Origin: Spirochaetia bacterium
GTDB taxonomy: Bacteria; Spirochaetota; Spirochaetia; Sphaerochaetales; Sphaerochaetaceae
NCBI GenBank assembly: GCA_009930325.1
Contig: RZYO01000014.1
Span: 1 to 39,836 of the forward strand
Reading direction: 5' to 3'
Length of the DNA: 39,836 bases
In this document: in pieces, positions 1-29,074 of the stretch
Layout: each line of letters begins with the position of its first letter
Position numbering within the stretch: position 1 is the stretch's first letter
Program-made: the position numbers and the translations under genes
The notes under the pieces: generated by a model
Database searches by the model: none
What the model saw: the letters and a program-made list of their open reading frames with translations, nothing else
Told to the model about the DNA's origin: nothing

Positions 1-2
1 TT

Positions 3-86
3 CAAAATATATATCAAATTGAAAGAGGTTATGAAAATTTAGATATAAAGTTAGGTAATATTGGAATTAATATAAAAAAAGCGTAA
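3..86 (+). CDS. murA: MurA C-terminus (partial; 5' end outside the window)
   Basis: Reading from base 3, an open frame runs 27 codons to a TAA at 84-86. Its residues include IERGYENLDIKLGNIG, which matches the conserved C-terminal signature of UDP-N-acetylglucosamine 1-carboxyvinyltransferase (a DRGYE..E.KL..LGA..-type ending). MurA carries out the first committed step of peptidoglycan synthesis in the cytoplasm. The catalytic loop lies upstream and cannot be seen. The other two forward frames stop at once, which supports this one. The call rests on a short tail, so it is likely but not certain. Confidence 0.72.
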   Translation, partial: QNIYQIERGYENLDIKLGNIGINIKKA

Positions 87-743
87 AACCTAATATTTCT
101 ATTACAAATATAAATTGTTTCGAAGTTTTCCACAAGTTATGCACAATAGCAACATATGTTAAGTATATAAAATAATTAACATATTTCTAACATTTTGTTC
201 TTAAATAACAAATTTAACATATTGGATATAATTTGTTATAATATAAGGAATTACTATAGTTTTTAATAAGTTTAATTAAATGAAATATTATTAAAATATA
301 TTAATTGTTATATAAGAATTAATATAAAGTTTTATATAACAAAATATATTTATCCACAAAAATGTTGTAAAAAATAACAAAAATATACAAATATGTAAAA
401 TTTCTTAATAAAATTATTTTTAGGGTGTATGAAAAACAAAAGTGTAGGTTAATAATTCCTTATATATAAAAAAATTAATAAAGAAAAAAGCAAATATTTT
501 GAAAAAATAAAGATATTTAAAAAAATTTTTATATTAGATAAATATTATTAGTTTTAATAAATATTTATTTATTTATGTTAACAATTATAAGATGATTTTA
601 TAAAATAATTACCACATAATAACAAAATATTGTTTATTAATTTTAATAAAAAATAACTAAAAAAAAGGTATTTTTTTATATAAATCATCTTAATTCTTTT
701 ATATATAAACAAATATAAATATAAATATTTTTTTATTTTAATA
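87..743. other. Long AT-rich gene-free region; candidate replication origin
   Basis: No believable gene is present in this stretch. Three 9-mers fit the DnaA-box consensus TTWTNCACA, all on the plus strand: TTTTCCACA at 126-134, TTATGCACA at 137-145 and the perfect TTATCCACA at 350-358. The sequence TTAACATAT occurs at 176-184 and 214-222, and its inverse ATATGTTAA at 154-162. An 8-bp inverted repeat (GTTATATA at 307-314, TATATAAC at 333-340) lies just before the perfect box. From about 360 to 743 the DNA is almost purely A/T, as expected of a DNA unwinding element. No dnaA or dnaN is in view, so the origin call is inference. Confidence 0.45.
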
Positions 744-772
744 TTGACATTTTTATTATACAAGGCTAACAT
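744..772 (+). promoter_or_regulatory. Sigma70-like promoter of the feo operon
   Basis: A perfect -35 TTGACA (744-749), a 17-base spacer and TAACAT (767-772, 4 of 6 matches) precede the first feoA. The predicted transcript would start near 779, giving a leader of about 37 bases. Confidence 0.6.
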
Positions 773-786
773 GGTTTTTAGTTTAA

Positions 787-802
787 GTTAGTTGTATCTA
801 AC
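787..802. promoter_or_regulatory. Inverted repeat in the feo leader, possible metalloregulator operator
   Basis: GTTAG (787-791) and CTAAC (798-802) form a GTTAG-N6-CTAAC dyad just downstream of the predicted transcription start and just before the ribosome binding site (805-810). A further CTAAC (766-770) overlaps the -10 box. The position suits a repressor site for iron-dependent control, for example by a DtxR/MntR-type regulator. That is inference; I see no classical Fur box. Confidence 0.35.
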
Positions 803-815
803 GTAAGGAGACTTT

Positions 816-1028
816 ATGCCATTATCAATGTTATCACTAGGAGAGTCAAAGGAAATTGTTTCGATTAGTGCTTCTTCTGATTTAAAGCAAAGATTATTAT
901 CAATGGGGTTTGTTCCTGGAAATTCGGTTACTATAGTTAGTATGAATTCAATGGGGTTGGTTTTAGAAATTAAAGGAACAAGACTTGCTTTAAATAAAGG
1001 TTTGGCACATCTGATTCAAGTTGCTTAA
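816..1028 (+). CDS. feoA: FeoA-family protein (first copy)
   Basis: A 70-residue FeoA-domain protein with an SH3-like beta-barrel fold. The segment KQRLLSMGFVPGNSVTIV followed by a glycine- and leucine-rich second half is the typical FeoA pattern. FeoA is a small cytoplasmic partner of the FeoB ferrous-iron permease. The start is supported by AAGGAG (805-810), five bases before the ATG. It is the first gene of a four-gene feo operon and lies 27 bases before a second, clearly different feoA. Two separate FeoA proteins next to FeoB are known from other anaerobes, and their division of labour is not settled. Confidence 0.9.
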   Translation: MPLSMLSLGESKEIVSISASSDLKQRLLSMGFVPGNSVTIVSMNSMGLVLEIKGTRLALNKGLAHLIQVA

Positions 1029-1055
1029 TTATTTTTTTTAGTGAGGAGATATTTT

Positions 1056-1274
1056 ATGACTTTATGTGATTTAAAGCCAGGCCAAAAAGGAAAAGTTGTT
1101 TCTTTTGGAACTGAAGGTGTTCTACGCCATAGATTATTAGATATGGGAATAACTACTGGTATTGAAATAGAACTTATTAAGGTTGCTCCGTTAGGAGATC
1201 CTTTGGAAATTAGACTTCGAGGCTATAATTTAAGTTTACGCAAAACGGAAGCTAGTGTTATAGAAATTAAGTAA
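1056..1274 (+). CDS. feoA: FeoA-family protein (second copy)
   Basis: A 72-residue FeoA-domain protein (MTLCDLKPGQKGKVV..., then HRLLDMGITTGIEIELI and a closing beta-rich part). I choose ATG 1056: the GTG at 1041 is in frame, but the sequence right after it holds the GGAG ribosome binding site (1045-1048) for the ATG, so starting at GTG would bury it in the coding region. It is closer to the textbook FeoA pattern than the first copy. It lies between feoA-1 and feoB, with 20 bases to feoB, and probably acts as a FeoB partner in ferrous-iron uptake. Confidence 0.92.
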   Translation: MTLCDLKPGQKGKVVSFGTEGVLRHRLLDMGITTGIEIELIKVAPLGDPLEIRLRGYNLSLRKTEASVIEIK

Positions 1275-1294
1275 AATAAAAAAAGGATTTTATA

Positions 1295-3328
1295 ATGAAA
1301 TATACTTTAGCCTTAGCTGGTAACCCTAACTGTGGGAAAACTACGCTATTTAATGTATTAACTGGGTCAAGACAACACGTTGGGAACTGGCCAGGTGTTA
1401 CAGTTGATAAAAAAGAAGGTGTATGGAAAAAGCACGAAGAATTTAATATTTTAGATTTACCTGGTACTTATTCTTTATCTCCTTATAGTGCAGAAGAAAA
1501 AATAGCAAGAGATTATATTGTTAAAGAACGACCTGATTGTGTTATTGATATTGTTGAATCTCCAAATTTAGAAAGAAATTTATATTTAACTTTACAAATT
1601 CTTGAAACGGGTGTTCCAACAGTCATTGCTTTAAATATGAGTGACGAATTGGAGCAGAGAGGTGAAATAATTGATTCTGCTTATCTTGAAAAAGAATTTG
1701 GTGTAAAAGTTGTAAAGATATCAGCTCGTAATAATCAGGGTTTTAAAGAGCTTTTTGAAGCTGTAAATGAAACAATTGAAAAAAAAATAACTCCAAAGCA
1801 ATTACCTTTGTTTGAAAAAATTAAAAATTTAGATGATGAAGGTGTTGCAAATGCAAGATATGAGAAAATTACTAATGTTGTAAAGCAATCTTATAAAAAA
1901 AATAGCAAAATACAAAATGAGACTACAAAAAGTAGCAAAATAGATAAAGTATTAACTAATAGAATATTAGGCTTACCAATTTTTGCAATAATAATGTATT
2001 TCTTGTTTCAGGTTAGTTTGGGAGAAAATTTATTCTTTGTAGGGATCCCTGGTTTAGGTGTAATTTTTGCTGGCTGGGTTGAAGCCATATGGTCAGCTTT
2101 AACAAATCTTGTAGCTTCCGGTTTAGTTAATGCAGCTCCGTGGGCTCAAGGCTTAGTAATTGATGGTATTTTTGGAGGTATCGGAGCTATTCTTGGTTTT
2201 ATGCCTTTAGTTTTAGTGCTATATATATTTTTAAGCGTCTTAGAAGATAGCGGATATATGGCTAGAGTTGCGTTTGTTTTAGATAGAATATTTAGACGTT
2301 TTGGCTTATCAGGGAAATCTTTTATTCCATTATTAATGGGTTTTGGATGTGCTGTCCCTGCTATCATGGCAACAAGAACTTTAGATGAAGAAAAAGATAG
2401 ACATATAACTACTATTATCACAGCTTTTATGCCATGTGGAGCTAAATTACCAATAATTGCTTTATTTGTAGCAATATTATTTGAACCTGGACAATCAGCA
2501 AATATTACTTTTTTAATTTATGTAATTGCTTTGTCTGTTGCGATTCTTGTTTCATTGATATTAAATAAATTATGGTATAAAGGTGCTACTTCAAACTTTC
2601 TAATGGAGCTCCCTCAATATAGGTTGCCAGCACCTATTTCTGTTTTACATCATTCATTTGAAAAAATAAAAGGTTTTGCTAGAAAAGCTGGAACAATAAT
2701 CTTAGCCTCTACTATATTAATCTGGTTTTTAACAAATTTTAATATTAATTCATTTAACGGGGTTAATAAAAGTGTAAATGAAAATGATAGTGTAATGTCT
2801 CAAATGGATGATTCTTTTATGGCTTCAGTTGGTGATTTTATTAGTCCTATTTTTACCCCATTAGGATTTACTGGATGGAGACCAACTGTTGGAATTATTA
2901 CTGGATGGATTGCTAAAGAAAATGTTGTTGCAACTTTTGCTCAAGTTTATTCTTCCGATATTACAGATGAATATTTAGAAAATTATTTTAATGTTAAAAA
3001 TGCAAGTTCTCAGGATTTAAGTGAGTCTGGTTTTGATAATGGAATATATGATAAAGATGTTGCTCGAACATTGTATGATGATTTACTAGCAGAAGGCCAA
3101 GATAGCAATGCCTTACCAACTGTAAAGAGAGATATTCCAACAAAAAGTGGTGGTTTTGCTTATATCATGTTTAATTTACTTTGTATGCCTTGTTTTGCCG
3201 CTGTTGGTTCAATGAAAAGAGAATTGAAAACTTGGAAAAAAACATTTGGTGGAATTTCAGTACAAATGTTAACCGCATATATAATAGCTCTAGCAATAAG
3301 ACTGATAGGATTATTGTTTGGATTTTAG
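1295..3328 (+). CDS. feoB: Ferrous iron transport protein B
   Basis: A 677-residue inner-membrane Fe(II) permease with an N-terminal G domain. The GTPase motifs are all visible: G1 GNPNCGKT (9-16), the G2 region around GVTV (34-37), G3 DLPG (54-57), G4 NMSD (114-117) and G5 SARN (143-146). A linker of about 70 residues leads to the hydrophobic permease part from about residue 220, with the FeoB signatures EDSGYMAR and GFGCAVPAIMATRTL. The length is normal for the family. An AAGGA ribosome binding site precedes the ATG. It follows two feoA genes and is followed after 9 bases by a small Cys-rich membrane protein, so the four form one operon. Confidence 0.97.
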   Translation: MKYTLALAGNPNCGKTTLFNVLTGSRQHVGNWPGVTVDKKEGVWKKHEEFNILDLPGTYSLSPYSAEEKIARDYIVKERPDCVIDIVESPNLERNLYLTLQILETGVPTVIALNMSDELEQRGEIIDSAYLEKEFGVKVVKISARNNQGFKELFEAVNETIEKKITPKQLPLFEKIKNLDDEGVANARYEKITNVVKQSYKKNSKIQNETTKSSKIDKVLTNRILGLPIFAIIMYFLFQVSLGENLFFVGIPGLGVIFAGWVEAIWSALTNLVASGLVNAAPWAQGLVIDGIFGGIGAILGFMPLVLVLYIFLSVLEDSGYMARVAFVLDRIFRRFGLSGKSFIPLLMGFGCAVPAIMATRTLDEEKDRHITTIITAFMPCGAKLPIIALFVAILFEPGQSANITFLIYVIALSVAILVSLILNKLWYKGATSNFLMELPQYRLPAPISVLHHSFEKIKGFARKAGTIILASTILIWFLTNFNINSFNGVNKSVNENDSVMSQMDDSFMASVGDFISPIFTPLGFTGWRPTVGIITGWIAKENVVATFAQVYSSDITDEYLENYFNVKNASSQDLSESGFDNGIYDKDVARTLYDDLLAEGQDSNALPTVKRDIPTKSGGFAYIMFNLLCMPCFAAVGSMKRELKTWKKTFGGISVQMLTAYIIALAIRLIGLLFGF

Positions 3329-8607: not shown

Positions 8608-10254
8608 ATGGTCAATGCTTTAAACAAAAATGGTAAGATAAGTCGAAAAGGACCTGTAGTTCTTGTTATAATGGACGGCGTAGGTTTTGGTAAATATCGT
8701 GAAGGCGATGCTGTTGCATCTGCTCATACTGAAACTTTAAATAAATTATATAAAAATAGTCCTTGGACAAAATTAAAAGCACATGGAACAGCTGTTGGTT
8801 TACCATCAGATGATGATATGGGTAATAGTGAAGTAGGACATAATGCAATGGGTTGTGGTAGAGTCTTTGCTCAAGGCGCAAAATTAGTTGCAAAATCTAT
8901 TTCTTCAAAAGCTATGTTTACAGGTGAAACTTGGACAAAATTAATTAAAAACGCAAAAACAAATAATTCAACACTTCATTTTATTGGATTATTATCAGAT
9001 GGTAATGTTCACTCTCATATTGATAATTTAAAAGCAATGGTTTTACAAGCAAAAGAGGATGGTGTTTCTAAGGTAAGAATTCATGCTTTATTAGATGGTA
9101 GAGATGTTGGAGAAAAAAGTGCTTTAGATTATTTTGATCCTTTTGAAGCCTTTTTAGCTGAGTTATCGGACAATAAATTTGATGCTAGAATTGCTTCAGG
9201 TGGTGGAAGAATGGTAATAACCATGGATAGATATAACGCTAACTGGGACATGGTTAAAAAAGGTTGGGAGACACATGTTTTAGGTGAAGGTAGAATGTTT
9301 GATTCTGCTCACCAAGCTATTGAAACATTAAGAGAAGAAACAGGTGCTATTGACCAAGATTTACCTCCTTTTGTTGTTGCAAAAGATAACAAACCTGTTG
9401 GTACTATTGAAGATAATGATAGTGTAATTTTATTTAACTTTAGAGGAGATAGAGCTTTAGAAATAACAAAAGCTTTTGAAGCTGAAGAATTAACAGAATT
9501 TGATAGAAAAAGATATCCTAAAGTTCAATATGCTGGAATGATGGAATACGATGGTGATTTACATGTTCCTGCTCAGTATTTAGTTTCTCCTCCATCAATT
9601 GATAAGACTATGGCTGAATATTTATGCGCTTCAAATGTTAGACAATTTTCAATTTCTGAAACACAAAAATTTGGTCATGTTACATATTTCTTTAATGGAA
9701 ATAAATCTGGTAAATTTGATGAAAATTTAGAAGAGTATGTTGAAATTTTATCTGATATTCTTCCTTTTGAACAAAGACCATGGATGAAATGTGCAGAGAT
9801 TGCTGATAGAGTAATAAAAGAAATAAATGAAGGATCTTGGGATCTTATTAAGTTAAATTTCCCTAACGGAGATATGGTTGGACATACCGGAATTTATGAA
9901 GCTGTTATTTGTTCTATGGAAGCAATGGATCTTCAAATTGGTAGAATAAAAAAAGCTATTGAAGAAAAAGGTGGTGTATTAGTAATTACCGCAGATCATG
10001 GTAATGCAGATGATATGTTTGAACATGCTAAAAATGGTGATGTAAAATATAAAGCTTCTGGAGAACCAAGTGCAAAGACTTCACATTCTTTAAATCCTGT
10101 ACCTTGTATTATTTATGACCCACAATATAATGGTGAATATGATTTAACCTTAAATGAAAAATTAGGTATTAGTTCTATTCCTGCCACTTTAATGAATTTC
10201 TTAGGATTTGATGCACCAAAAGATTATGATAAATCAATTATTAATTTAAAATAA
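8608..10254 (+). CDS. gpmI: 2,3-bisphosphoglycerate-independent phosphoglycerate mutase
   Basis: A 548-residue metal-dependent iPGM of the alkaline phosphatase superfamily, which interconverts 3- and 2-phosphoglycerate in glycolysis. The N-terminal LVIMDGVGFG carries the first metal-binding Asp; the phosphoryl-accepting serine is Ser74 in DMGNSEVGH. The central phosphotransferase insert includes LLDGRDV and SGGGRMVITMDRY. The C-terminal TADHGNAD and KTSHSLNPVP supply the remaining metal ligands. It is somewhat longer than the roughly 510 residues of many bacterial forms. AGGAG (8594-8598) supports the start. A terminator follows 24 bases after the stop. Confidence 0.97.
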   Translation: MVNALNKNGKISRKGPVVLVIMDGVGFGKYREGDAVASAHTETLNKLYKNSPWTKLKAHGTAVGLPSDDDMGNSEVGHNAMGCGRVFAQGAKLVAKSISSKAMFTGETWTKLIKNAKTNNSTLHFIGLLSDGNVHSHIDNLKAMVLQAKEDGVSKVRIHALLDGRDVGEKSALDYFDPFEAFLAELSDNKFDARIASGGGRMVITMDRYNANWDMVKKGWETHVLGEGRMFDSAHQAIETLREETGAIDQDLPPFVVAKDNKPVGTIEDNDSVILFNFRGDRALEITKAFEAEELTEFDRKRYPKVQYAGMMEYDGDLHVPAQYLVSPPSIDKTMAEYLCASNVRQFSISETQKFGHVTYFFNGNKSGKFDENLEEYVEILSDILPFEQRPWMKCAEIADRVIKEINEGSWDLIKLNFPNGDMVGHTGIYEAVICSMEAMDLQIGRIKKAIEEKGGVLVITADHGNADDMFEHAKNGDVKYKASGEPSAKTSHSLNPVPCIIYDPQYNGEYDLTLNEKLGISSIPATLMNFLGFDAPKDYDKSIINLK

Positions 10255-10277
10255 TTAAGATATTATAAAAAATAAGT

Positions 10278-10307
10278 AAGAGAGAATGTTAATCATTCTC
10301 TCTTTTT
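10278..10307. terminator. Terminator after gpmI
   Basis: An 11-bp stem (10278-10288 with 10294-10304, core GAGAGAATG/CATTCTCTC) with a five-base loop and a T-run on the plus strand. The convergent membrane-protein gene ends at 10306, so its stop codon overlaps the T-run. Confidence 0.85.
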
Positions 10308-11073
10308 ATATTGAATAAGACTTCATATTAATAATTAACGTAATTGAACTAGTAATTAATAAAATTAATAAAAAGAAAATTAAAAGGATTGGCAAAGAAA
10401 GAGAACTTTTTAAAATTGCTATCGAAAGTATAAAAAAACAATATGAATAAGTTTTTAATTTATTATGAGATGTTTTATCTTTTAAATATGAGGGAATAAA
10501 ACTTAAAATTGCAAAAAAAGAAAGGAAAAAATAAAAACTTTTAAATAATGGGGATAGTGTTATCATTTTTAAAGGCTCTGAAATAGTCGGACTACTAATA
10601 TTTATAAAAGAACTAATTACTAAAGAAAAACTTAATGTAAATAACACATTTTGATTATACCCTTTTATGTTAGATCTTTTTTGATTAAGTCCACAAAGAA
10701 TAAAGAATAAAAGAGAAGAGATTAATGAGAAAATATGTATTTTACCAATAGAAATAGGAGAAAGCAAAATAATATTTGTTAATTTTTGAAAGCTTGGTAG
10801 AACTATTATTCCATCCAAGGATAAGGCTAATAAGACATAATGAAAAAGAGGAGAGTCCCCCCATTTTCTGGGTTCACTCATTTGGCATAATTGAATAGCT
10901 AAATACTCATAAACGATTAATTGAATAATATTTGAAATAAAAATTGAATGAATACTTGAAAGATCCTTGTTAAATCTTAATGCTTCAATTGTAGAAAAAA
11001 TAATTAAACTTATAAAAAACAATGAAATAATACTTTGAATAATTACAAGTAAATATTGATATTTTTTTTTCAT
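10306..11073 (-). CDS. Hypothetical multi-pass membrane protein
   Basis: A 255-residue protein of no family I recognise. It consists almost entirely of hydrophobic segments separated by short polar loops (about seven or eight possible helices), with few charged residues outside Lys-rich connectors; the N-terminus MKKKYQYLLVIIQS suggests the cytoplasmic side. I choose ATG 11073, which has GAGG four to five bases upstream, over an in-frame ATG at 11124 whose coding would run into a hairpin region. It lies downstream of the symporter gene in the same direction, separated by a terminator-like hairpin, so it may be partly co-transcribed. Confidence 0.7.
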   Translation of the reverse strand: MKKKYQYLLVIIQSIISLFFISLIIFSTIEALRFNKDLSSIHSIFISNIIQLIVYEYLAIQLCQMSEPRKWGDSPLFHYVLLALSLDGIIVLPSFQKLTNIILLSPISIGKIHIFSLISSLLFFILCGLNQKRSNIKGYNQNVLFTLSFSLVISSFINISSPTISEPLKMITLSPLFKSFYFFLSFFAILSFIPSYLKDKTSHNKLKTYSYCFFILSIAILKSSLSLPILLIFFLLILLITSSITLIINMKSYSI

Positions 11074-25270: not shown

Positions 25271-25298
25271 TTGAAAAAGATAAATAAAAGTGTATAAT
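25271..25298 (+). promoter_or_regulatory. Promoter of the parE-parC-rluA operon, near-leaderless
   Basis: TTGAAA (25271-25276, 4 of 6), a 16-base spacer and a perfect TATAAT (25293-25298) end nine bases before ATG 25308. The in-frame GTG at 25290 lies inside the spacer and -10 region. Confidence 0.6.
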
Positions 25299-25307
25299 AA
25301 TAATGAT

Positions 25308-27119
25308 ATGGAAAAAGTAACAAATATTTATGATGAAGATCAAATTCAATCTTTATCTGCATTAGAACATATAAGATTGAGAAGTGGAATGTATATCGGA
25401 CGTATTGGTAACGGAAGTAATCAAAATGATGGTATATATATTCTTTTTAAAGAAGTAATTGATAACAGTATTGACGAGTTCAATGAAAATTGTGGTAATC
25501 GCATTGAAATAACGCTTAAAGAAAATTTGGTAACAGTGAGGGATTACGGAAGAGGAATCCCTTTAGGCAAAGTAATTGATTGTGTTTCTAAAATAAATAC
25601 AGGCGCTAAATATACTAATGAAGTTTTCCACCGTTCTGTTGGATTAAATGGTGTAGGTACTAAAGCAGTAAATGCATTATCTTCTCATTTTAAAGTTATT
25701 AGTTATAGAGAGGGTAAATTCGTAAGTGCAACTTTTTCTAGAGGGAAGCTTCTTGATCAAAAGAAAGGCCAAGATAAATCGCAACTAGATGGGACTTATA
25801 TTGAATTCATTCCCGATGAAGAAATATTTAAAAAATATAAATATGAAGAAGATTATATAGAAACAAGATTATGGAATTATGCATATTTAAATCCAGGATT
25901 AACATTAAATTATAATGGAAGAAATTATAAGAGTACAAAAGGGCTTTTAGATTTATTGTCAAAAGAAGTAGATGGAGAAGAGTTATATTCTTTAATTCAC
26001 TATAGAGGACAATATTTAGAATTTGCTTTAACGCATGTCGCTAATAGTTATGGAGAGAATTACTTTTCTTATGTTAATGGACAAAATACTATAGATGGCG
26101 GTACTCATTTATCAGCGTTTAAAGAAGGTTTTTTAAAAGCTGTTAATGACCATTTCAAAAAAACATGGTCAGCTCAAGATGTAAGAGAAGGTATTCTAGG
26201 TGCAATTTCAGTAAAAATTGAAAATCCAGTTTTTGAAAGTCAAACAAAAAACAAATTAGGAAATACCGAAATTAGAGGATGGATTGTTCAAGAAGTAAAA
26301 GACGGTGTTATTGATTTTTTATTAAAAAATCCTGATGAAGCTAGTAGTATTTCAAGTAAAATTACTCATAATGAGAAATTAAGAAAAGAATTAAATGAGG
26401 TTAGAAAAAGTTCAAGAAGTTCTGCTAAAAGAGTAGCTCTAAATATTCCAAAATTAAAAGATTGTAAATATCATTTAGGTCAAAGTAAATCTCATGTTGA
26501 AGAATGCGAGAATTCTATGATTTTTTTGACTGAAGGAGATTCTGCTTCAGGCTCGATTACAAAATGTCGAGATGTAAAGATTCAAGCTGTTTTTTCTCTT
26601 AGAGGTAAAATATTAAATGTATTTAATAAAAATAAAGCTGAGCTATATAAAAATGCAGAATTATATAATCTTATGAAAGCCTTAGGTTTAGAGGATGGTA
26701 TAGAAAATTTACGTTATTCAAAAGTTATAATTGCAACAGATGCTGATACAGATGGGTTTCATATTCGTAATTTATTAATGACATACTTTTTAACTTATTT
26801 TGAAGAATTAGTACTAGCTGGGCGAGTATATATTTTAGAAACCCCTTTATTTAGAGTAAGAAATAAAAAGACTACAGCTTATTGTTATTCAGAAAAAGAA
26901 AGGGATATTTTATTAACACAAATAAAAGGTGCTGAAATAACTCGATTTAAAGGTCTTGGTGAAATTGATCCTAAAGAATTTGGAATGTTTATTGGAGAGG
27001 ATATGAGATTAGAGCCTGTTAAGGTTAATTCCTTATCAGAAATCCCAAAGCTTTTGAAATTTTATCAAGGAGATAATACTCCAGAAAGAAGAGACTTTAT
27101 TATGGAGAATTTAATTTAA
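25308..27119 (+). CDS. parE: DNA topoisomerase IV subunit B
   Basis: A 603-residue type IIA topoisomerase ATPase subunit. The GHKL ATPase carries NSIDEF, DYGRGIP and the GLNGVGTKAVNALS lid; the Toprim domain carries EGDSASGS and DADTDGFHI with catalytic acids. The version EGDSASGSITKCRD with SLRGK is typical of Bacteroidetes/spirochaete ParE rather than GyrB, and the short length agrees. I choose ATG 25308; a GTG at 25290 is in frame but lies in the promoter and has no ribosome binding site. The stop overlaps the parC ATG by one base. Confidence 0.92.
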   Translation: MEKVTNIYDEDQIQSLSALEHIRLRSGMYIGRIGNGSNQNDGIYILFKEVIDNSIDEFNENCGNRIEITLKENLVTVRDYGRGIPLGKVIDCVSKINTGAKYTNEVFHRSVGLNGVGTKAVNALSSHFKVISYREGKFVSATFSRGKLLDQKKGQDKSQLDGTYIEFIPDEEIFKKYKYEEDYIETRLWNYAYLNPGLTLNYNGRNYKSTKGLLDLLSKEVDGEELYSLIHYRGQYLEFALTHVANSYGENYFSYVNGQNTIDGGTHLSAFKEGFLKAVNDHFKKTWSAQDVREGILGAISVKIENPVFESQTKNKLGNTEIRGWIVQEVKDGVIDFLLKNPDEASSISSKITHNEKLRKELNEVRKSSRSSAKRVALNIPKLKDCKYHLGQSKSHVEECENSMIFLTEGDSASGSITKCRDVKIQAVFSLRGKILNVFNKNKAELYKNAELYNLMKALGLEDGIENLRYSKVIIATDADTDGFHIRNLLMTYFLTYFEELVLAGRVYILETPLFRVRNKKTTAYCYSEKERDILLTQIKGAEITRFKGLGEIDPKEFGMFIGEDMRLEPVKVNSLSEIPKLLKFYQGDNTPERRDFIMENLI

Positions 27120-29074
27120 TGGCACAAGTTGAAAAAATATTTAAACAAAACTTTTTAGAATACGCTTCCTATGTAATAAAGGATCGAGCAATAGCAGATT
27201 TAGAAGATGGTTTTAAACCTGTACAAAGGAGAATAATGCATTCTCTTTTTGAAATGGATGATGGCAAATTCCATAAAGTAGCAAATGTTGTTGGATGGAC
27301 AATGAGATATCATCCTCATGGTGATTCTTCAATTTATGAAGCATTGGTTAATTTAGCCAATTTTGATTTATTAATTGAAAGACAAGGGAATTTTGGTAAT
27401 AGTTTAACTGGAGATAGAGCTGCTGCTTCAAGATATATTGAATGTCGGGTGTTACCTTTCGCGAAAAGAGTTTTATATAATCCTGAATTAACTACTTATA
27501 TTGATTCATATGATGGAAGAAATAAAGAACCTGTTGTTTTTCTCTCTAAATTACCTTTAGTAATTATTCAAGGTGTTACAGGAATTGCTGTAGGTATGGC
27601 AACAAATATTTTTCCTCATAATGTTGATGAAGTAATGACTGCCATGAAAAAAGAATTACAGGGAGAAGATTTTATTTTATATCCTGATTTTCCTTGTGGT
27701 GGGTATGTTGATGTAAGTGATTATGATGATGGGAAAGGTTCTATTATTGTAAGAGCAAAACTCGATACTTCCGATTCAAAAAGAATCGTAATCACAGAAC
27801 TCCCTTATGGAATTACAAGTGAAAGACTAATTACAACTATTGATGATGCAGCGAAGAAAGGGAAATTAAAAGTAGCCTCAATTAATGATTATACTGCTGA
27901 AAATGTAAATATTGAAGTAAATTTATCAAGAGGAACATATTCAGAAGATGTTGTAAAATTATTATATGCATATACAGAATGTGAGAGAAAAATTTCATGT
28001 AATTCTTTAGTTATTAAAGATAATATACCAACTATAATGGGTGTAAGTGAAATTGTAAAATATCATGCACATCATTTAATTGATGTTTTGAAAGCAGAAT
28101 TAGAACTTGAAAAATCAAAATTAGAAGATAGATTACATTTAAGAACATTAGAGAGAATCTTTGTTGAAGAGCGAATATATAAGAAAATTGAACAAAAAAA
28201 ATCAGCACAAGCTGTTGTAAGTGCTGTATTAACCGGTTTTAAACCTTTTAAGGATCAATTATTTAGAGATATTAATGAAGATGATGTCGATAGATTATTA
28301 AAAATACCAATTAGAAGAATTAGTTTATTTGATATTGAAAAGAATCGAAATGAAATTGATGTAATTAATGAAAATATTAAAGAAATTAACAAGAAATTAG
28401 ACCATTTAGTTGATTATGCTATTTCATATTTAGATGAACTAAAAACAATGATAGGTAAAGATAAACTAAAAAGAAAAACTATAATAAATAATTTTGAAGT
28501 AGTAAAAGAAAAGGAAGTTGCACAAAGAGACAAAGATTTAAAATATGATTCTTCTACTGGTTATTTAGGCTATACAATAAAAACTGGAGATACTGTATTA
28601 TCAATTAGTATTTTTGATAGAGTACTGATAATAATGAAAGATGGATCTTATAGATTCTTAGTTAATCCTGAAAAAGAATATATTGGTAAAGGGTTACTTT
28701 ATATTAATTATGGAGATAAAGAGACTCTAGATAATGTAATTTTCTCTTTAATTTTTAGACAAAACACTTATAAATATTTATTTATAAAAAGATTTAATAT
28801 AAAATCAGGACAATTGAATAAAGTATATTCTTTATTGCCAGATGAAAATGAATATAAAGTTACAAAGTTAACTACTTATGAAAATGCTGAAATTAGGGTA
28901 ATTTATAAACCTAAACCAGGATTAAGAATTAAAGAAGAAAGTTTTTATTTAAGTGATTTCTTAGTTAAAGGACATAAATCTAAAGGTGTTAGATTAACCG
29001 TAAAAGAGGTCTCCTCTTTGAGAATGAGGGAAGTAAAACAAGTTGTATCCGAAGATAAAACTCTGTTTGATTAA
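27119..29074 (+). CDS. parC: DNA topoisomerase IV subunit A
   Basis: A 651-residue type IIA topoisomerase breakage-reunion subunit. It opens MAQVEKIFKQNFLEYASYVIKDRAI, with KPVQRRIMHSL and catalytic Tyr106 in AASRYIE. The region that matches the quinolone-resistance region of GyrA is HGDSSIYEA: Ser70 (Ser83 equivalent) is kept and the Asp87 equivalent is Glu74. The C-terminal part is short (about 170 residues after the coiled coil), so a full six-bladed pinwheel seems unlikely; the size is like Borrelia ParC. Its ATG overlaps the parE stop, so the two are translationally coupled. Confidence 0.92.
   Translation: MAQVEKIFKQNFLEYASYVIKDRAIADLEDGFKPVQRRIMHSLFEMDDGKFHKVANVVGWTMRYHPHGDSSIYEALVNLANFDLLIERQGNFGNSLTGDRAAASRYIECRVLPFAKRVLYNPELTTYIDSYDGRNKEPVVFLSKLPLVIIQGVTGIAVGMATNIFPHNVDEVMTAMKKELQGEDFILYPDFPCGGYVDVSDYDDGKGSIIVRAKLDTSDSKRIVITELPYGITSERLITTIDDAAKKGKLKVASINDYTAENVNIEVNLSRGTYSEDVVKLLYAYTECERKISCNSLVIKDNIPTIMGVSEIVKYHAHHLIDVLKAELELEKSKLEDRLHLRTLERIFVEERIYKKIEQKKSAQAVVSAVLTGFKPFKDQLFRDINEDDVDRLLKIPIRRISLFDIEKNRNEIDVINENIKEINKKLDHLVDYAISYLDELKTMIGKDKLKRKTIINNFEVVKEKEVAQRDKDLKYDSSTGYLGYTIKTGDTVLSISIFDRVLIIMKDGSYRFLVNPEKEYIGKGLLYINYGDKETLDNVIFSLIFRQNTYKYLFIKRFNIKSGQLNKVYSLLPDENEYKVTKLTTYENAEIRVIYKPKPGLRIKEESFYLSDFLVKGHKSKGVRLTVKEVSSLRMREVKQVVSEDKTLFD

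Follow-up and report, generated by a model that had tools for sequence, protein, structure and literature searches.

A DnaA-box element found across much of the spirochaete class lies outside the replication origin and resembles E. coli datA in layout

Does the gene-free stretch between murA and the feo genes of this spirochaete, in which several DnaA boxes are grouped, serve as a replication origin, as a sequence-only reading of the DNA had proposed, or does it play another part in replication? The window (the whole stretch of 39,836 nucleotides that was analysed) is contig C153 of draft genome G000 (3.51 Mb in 413 contigs, completeness 92%, contamination 7.9%), a member of Sphaerochaetaceae judging by its relatives. 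It opens with the 3' end of murA (3-86, plus strand), of which the last 27 codons and the stop are present, frame 3 reading QNIYQIERGYENLDIKLGNIGINIKKA up to the stop. The genes that follow, both neighbours outside the element described here, are a first copy of feoA (816-1028, plus strand, an ORF read from the sequence) and feoB (1295-3328, plus strand; TIGR00437, E 2.4e-167). The murA-feoA gap itself (87-815) is 729 bp long, contains no gene, as the sequence-only reading had stated, and has a G+C content of 14%.

Three matches to the DnaA-box consensus TTWTNCACA were found in this gap, all on the plus strand: box A1 (TTTTCCACA, 126-134), box A2 (TTATGCACA, 137-145), which starts 11 bp after A1, and box B2 (TTATCCACA, 350-358). 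A further box, B1, is expected at 339-347, where the window carries the degenerate ACAAAATAT and many relatives have an intact box. The three matches are grouped within 233 bp, outside the origin and in the minimum number (at least three) that we took to define a DnaA-box cluster, while dinucleotide shuffles of the gap contained on average 0.12 boxes and reached at least three in only 0.02% of cases (P ~2e-4). A tandem pair like A1/A2 is also present in the oriC of the same genome (TTTTCCACAAGTTATACACA). The number, common orientation and 11-base spacing of the boxes were thus as the sequence-only reading had given them, and the repeats of TTAACATAT that it mentioned were located at 176 and 214, with the complement at 154. 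The 8-bp inverted repeat described beside the perfect box could not be recovered, there being no perfect one with a spacer below 12 bp around 310-400. The scarcity of C and G is real, but it is not distinctive, as the other intergenic gaps of the window have 15-32% G+C, and AT-richness was accordingly dropped as a sign of an origin. Two features had been overlooked, namely a 25-bp palindrome between the boxes (229-253) and the fact that the contig starts inside murA.

Some further sequence features accompany the boxes. A near-palindrome, GTTAAGTAT-ATAAA-ATAATTAAC, follows directly after A2 at 154-181, and its counterpart in G001, a genome of the same genus, is perfect and also lies just after A2 (ATACTTAAC). 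The motif ATTTTTAGGGTRTATG occurs about 60 bp after B2 in the window (410-430) and in G001, and a similar one lies inside the corresponding gap of G003. Rfam gave no match in window positions 1-1400 at E up to 1, nor in the locus of one relative, and a reading of the element as a non-coding RNA was dropped on that ground.

The truncated murA proved informative about the position of the site on the chromosome. The N-terminal part of the gene (first 349 codons) was found on contig C412 of the same genome (3-1049, minus strand), where it runs off the contig start, and in G001, where the same gene order is contiguous, the stretch missing between C412 and C153 amounts to 150 bp. Because murA is split between both contig ends, the two contigs are probably neighbours, joined inside murA with about 150 bp missing. 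C412 also carries dnaA (9509-10948, minus strand) and, next to it, a gene assigned as dnaN by this position. The gap between the two (9096-9388) holds eight exact box matches within 0.3 kb, compared to three at the window site, and by its content and setting it is the ordinary oriC of this genome. The window boxes would then lie approximately 9.4 kb from oriC, a distance that spans the contig gap and is read with the help of the contiguous synteny in G001. The window has, in addition, a pair of adjacent topoisomerase genes (25290-29074), encoding a GyrB/ParE-like protein and a PRK09631-type topoisomerase IV subunit A, which are additional to the gyrB/gyrA-like genes beside dnaA.

GC skew was assessed on G003, a chromosome of the same genus available as one 3.4-Mb contig, which was sampled in stretches. 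On one side the sampled values were mostly below zero and on the other mostly above it, with the sign change at dnaA-dnaN: skew was -0.175 to the left of dnaA, +0.089 between oriC and the element and +0.082 beyond, although the resolution is limited, as gene orientation contributes too. The signs in G000 were the same. The stretch from oriC to the element thus already carries the sign expected downstream of oriC, and no sign change takes place at the element, which is, as far as skew goes, the outcome that the sequence-only reading had itself named as speaking against an origin. Its suggested comparison of DnaA-box density pointed the same way, the densest cluster being that between dnaA and dnaN. 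What stands of the proposal is that these are functional-looking DnaA sites tied to replication initiation, probably about 9 kb from the origin; they are not the origin itself.

The whole element (126-358, plus strand, approximately 240 bp) has a palindrome at its centre and a group of DnaA boxes on either side, and this geometry is kept in relatives as two head-to-tail box pairs with an 11-bp period, on the same strand, with the pairs 204-233 bp apart. The check for conserved boxes in close relatives was positive: a tandem pair, followed about 210-230 bp on by a box or a pair, was found 3' of murA in G001, G002, G005, G008 and G024, and the same arrangement near jag, rsmE or ctp in G009, G016 and G019. 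A four-box scan (A1, A2 at A1+11, B1, B2 at B1+11, all on one strand) of 77 Sphaerochaetales loci anchored at jag gave scores of 27-32 out of 32 in about 60 loci, the remainder being mostly contigs that end too early, whereas control scans (other strand, reversed or complemented sequence) mostly reached 18-26. The G003 copy looks degenerate, since only separated boxes are kept in its gap. In some relatives the boxes are weakened (for example TTTTCAACA) or the element could not be recognised in the stretch examined (L107 and L110, 13.3-14.6 kb; L126, L129 and L133-L135). Strict helical phasing between A1 and B1 was tested and the claim was dropped; phasing between parts of the element is only suggestive.

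Across the class, 395 genomes were scanned with the strict pair-plus-third-box pattern, which was present in 61; the reversed-pattern control had no hit in any of the rows listed. A sequence-only profile (R1), built from 44 elements with the window included, recovered the window copy at 121-359 of C153 (E 2.5e-10, for a training sequence) and gave matches at E up to 0.01 in 150 of 198 class genomes, many with E < 1e-8 and many from families that were not used in training. With this profile, the element was found in most sampled families of the spirochaete class. It had no match in the listed genomes of family f19 (1.0-1.8 Mb; Borrelia-like) or in G211, a 1.1-Mb genome of f24 (probably Treponemataceae), and this apparent absence suggests loss with genome reduction. 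Two genomes of f26 carry a further cluster of five or six DnaA boxes (L141, 9967-10212; L143, 9957-10212), which lies downstream of a gene resembling a gamma carbonic anhydrase and far from murA.

The genomic setting of the element varies by family: it may follow murA or jag at the 3' end, occupy the gyrB-dnaA gap or adjoin a gene for a STAS-domain protein, and it is thus independent of its neighbouring genes. Members of Sphaerochaetaceae have it 3' of murA or rbr; outside this family it is mostly situated between murA and the STAS gene and sometimes in the gyrB-dnaA gap. The murA-STAS interval is probably the ancestral setting. The STAS-domain gene adjoining the element in f24 and f28 (L161-L164, L153) likely encodes an anti-sigma-factor antagonist, and some of these copies are flanked on their far side by a gene for a polyprenyl synthase. 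The distance to dnaA ranges from next door through 9-30 kb and 74-145 kb to about 0.5 Mb in G291 and G265, two f24 chromosomes, and because of the latter, close linkage to the origin is not essential. Copies with the same geometry occur in the gyrB-dnaA gap of several families (L199, L200, L202, L204, L209; L151, L152, L158-L160), and these may belong to a bipartite origin, to the dnaA promoter or to dnaA control.

The centre of the element was explored by EM motif discovery without a positional prior, on 71 diverse elements picked by their boxes alone. One central motif emerged, with a log-likelihood of 322 compared to 85-122 in shuffles, and its consensus is a 25-bp palindrome (TAAnTnnTTnnAnTnnAAnnAnTTA), the symmetry being read from the frequency table. 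Its offset from A1 is +107 to +109 for the majority of elements and about +87/88, +96-98 or +102/103 for others. The window copy (TAATTTGTTATAATATAAGGAATTA, 229-253), a candidate HU/IHF (Hbb-type) bending site, agrees at 14 of 14 defined positions and is the sole such site in the 39.8-kb window, which was itself among the source sequences of the motif. In 18 of 19 later elements the motif scored above shuffles (p<0.05), although these are not fully independent, as the profile that found them includes the motif.

Each arm of the palindrome reads TAAnnnnTT, and the two TT/AA steps lie 9 bp apart, as do the two kinks in complexes of the IHF type. The arms correspond to the opening half of the IHF consensus TAAnnnnTTGATW (PMC10950094), but the GAT half found in the E. 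coli consensus is missing. With this partial likeness to sites of the IHF/Hbb type, the palindrome is a probable bending site, and it could alternatively be the site of another protein or an unwinding element. A search of the genome itself (a draft, completeness 92%) returned one HU/IHF-family gene, whose protein has Borrelia Hbb as its best PDB match (2np2, E 2.4e-25); a homodimer of such a protein would suit a palindromic site.

This layout can be compared with datA of E. coli, a 262-bp minimal region near oriC in which DnaA boxes enclose an IHF site; the bend made there by IHF brings the bound DnaA molecules together, and ATP is hydrolysed (PMC5742627). Both elements are non-coding, are about 250 bp long, have an IHF-type site (a putative one here) flanked by DnaA boxes and lie 3' of genes, near but outside oriC (PMC5742627, PMC10950094). 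Here, boxes flank the putative bending site within about 260 bp, with the partial likeness to IHF noted above, and the distance of about 9.4 kb places the element near oriC, which is not the case in G291 and G265. In contrast to datA, the spirochaete element has two symmetric 11-bp tandem pairs and a palindromic centre suited to a homodimer, it is class-wide, and it has no gene neighbours in common with datA. Looser counterparts exist as well. DnaA-box clusters near oriC of B. subtilis are likewise groups of boxes outside the origin, and removal of six of them led to early initiation (ref. 123 of PMC5295017); the spirochaete element differs in the constant geometry of its two pairs and in its conserved centre, and no site of the latter kind is described for those clusters in the text consulted. 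The cluster of Streptomyces coelicolor, likened to datA in PMC5742627, also lies outside oriC and is reported to restrain initiation.

On the whole, we lean towards reading the element as an origin-linked DnaA-control element that is built like datA, exerts negative control and is not an origin. In such an element, DnaA would bind the two head-to-tail box pairs, about 205-233 bp apart, and a homodimeric HU/IHF-family protein of the Hbb type would bend the DNA at the central palindrome. The bend would bring the two DnaA groups together into a complex, which would hold or inactivate DnaA, by sequestration or ATP hydrolysis, soon after the origin region has been copied. Negative rather than positive control is proposed because the datA-like plan recurs here in a symmetric form and because, in this family, the element would be copied just after the origin.

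A possible but unlikely alternative is that the element forms the remote half of a bipartite origin, its DnaA looping to that bound at oriC and joining in unwinding, as do the clusters flanking dnaA in B. subtilis, where two separated box groups surround the dnaA region and loop formation has been proposed. The distance to oriC (about 9 kb here, 7-16 kb in many relatives) would suit such looping, as would the presence of the two-pair geometry right beside dnaA in several families. However, the spirochaete element is several genes away and has been mobile relative to dnaA over evolution, with its internal geometry constant from next door to about 0.5 Mb. Moreover, in G155 and G222 a distant copy exists alongside the one in the gyrB-dnaA gap, and the dnaA-dnaN gap is box-rich by itself in the loci examined.

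Another reading is a DARS-like element, reactivating DnaA via nucleotide exchange. In its favour, the boxes form a group on the chromosome together with a putative bending site, and one genus has extra inverted boxes just inside the pairs; DARS1 and DARS2 are likewise non-coding DnaA-box elements, and DARS2 has an IHF site. This we consider rather improbable, as box I is opposite to boxes II and III in the DARS cores (PMC5742627), whereas the window boxes all point one way, and most families lack the inverted boxes. It is very doubtful that the element serves feoA, or some other neighbour, as a promoter region regulated by DnaA: it does lie upstream of feoA in the window, and DnaA acts as a transcription factor in Borrelia (PMC9879097), but the neighbours vary between families, most relatives that keep the element lack feo at this place, and the flanking genes are often convergent (murA(+)/rsmE(-) or murA/STAS), so that a feo promoter was ruled out. 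Finally, a separate working origin, suggested by the boxes, the AT-rich gap and the nearby dnaA, deserves next to no credence, because of the skew and the presence of oriC elsewhere, and since relatives keep both oriC and the element.

Most detailed knowledge of DnaA-control elements outside the origin comes from E. coli, and clusters of a looser kind are known from B. subtilis and Streptomyces. The element described here belongs with these DnaA-box elements outside the origin, and what is new is its twin-pair geometry, its palindromic centre and its persistence across the class; no description of it was found in the literature searched, which is weak evidence given the poor coverage of subscription papers. 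Judged by its spread, the element is very old, and it probably helps decide when copying starts. A fixed geometry across much of the class, in genomes with G+C contents of 27-65%, points to DNA-templated control of DnaA being general and old. More tentatively, it may be a spirochaete class-wide analogue of datA, in which a homodimeric Hbb-type protein folds the two box pairs together and thereby switches DnaA off (or on); if so, DNA-templated control of DnaA would be ancient and not a speciality of E. coli and its relatives. The boxes, the central palindrome and their spacing offer a precise target for the study of replication control in spirochaetes.
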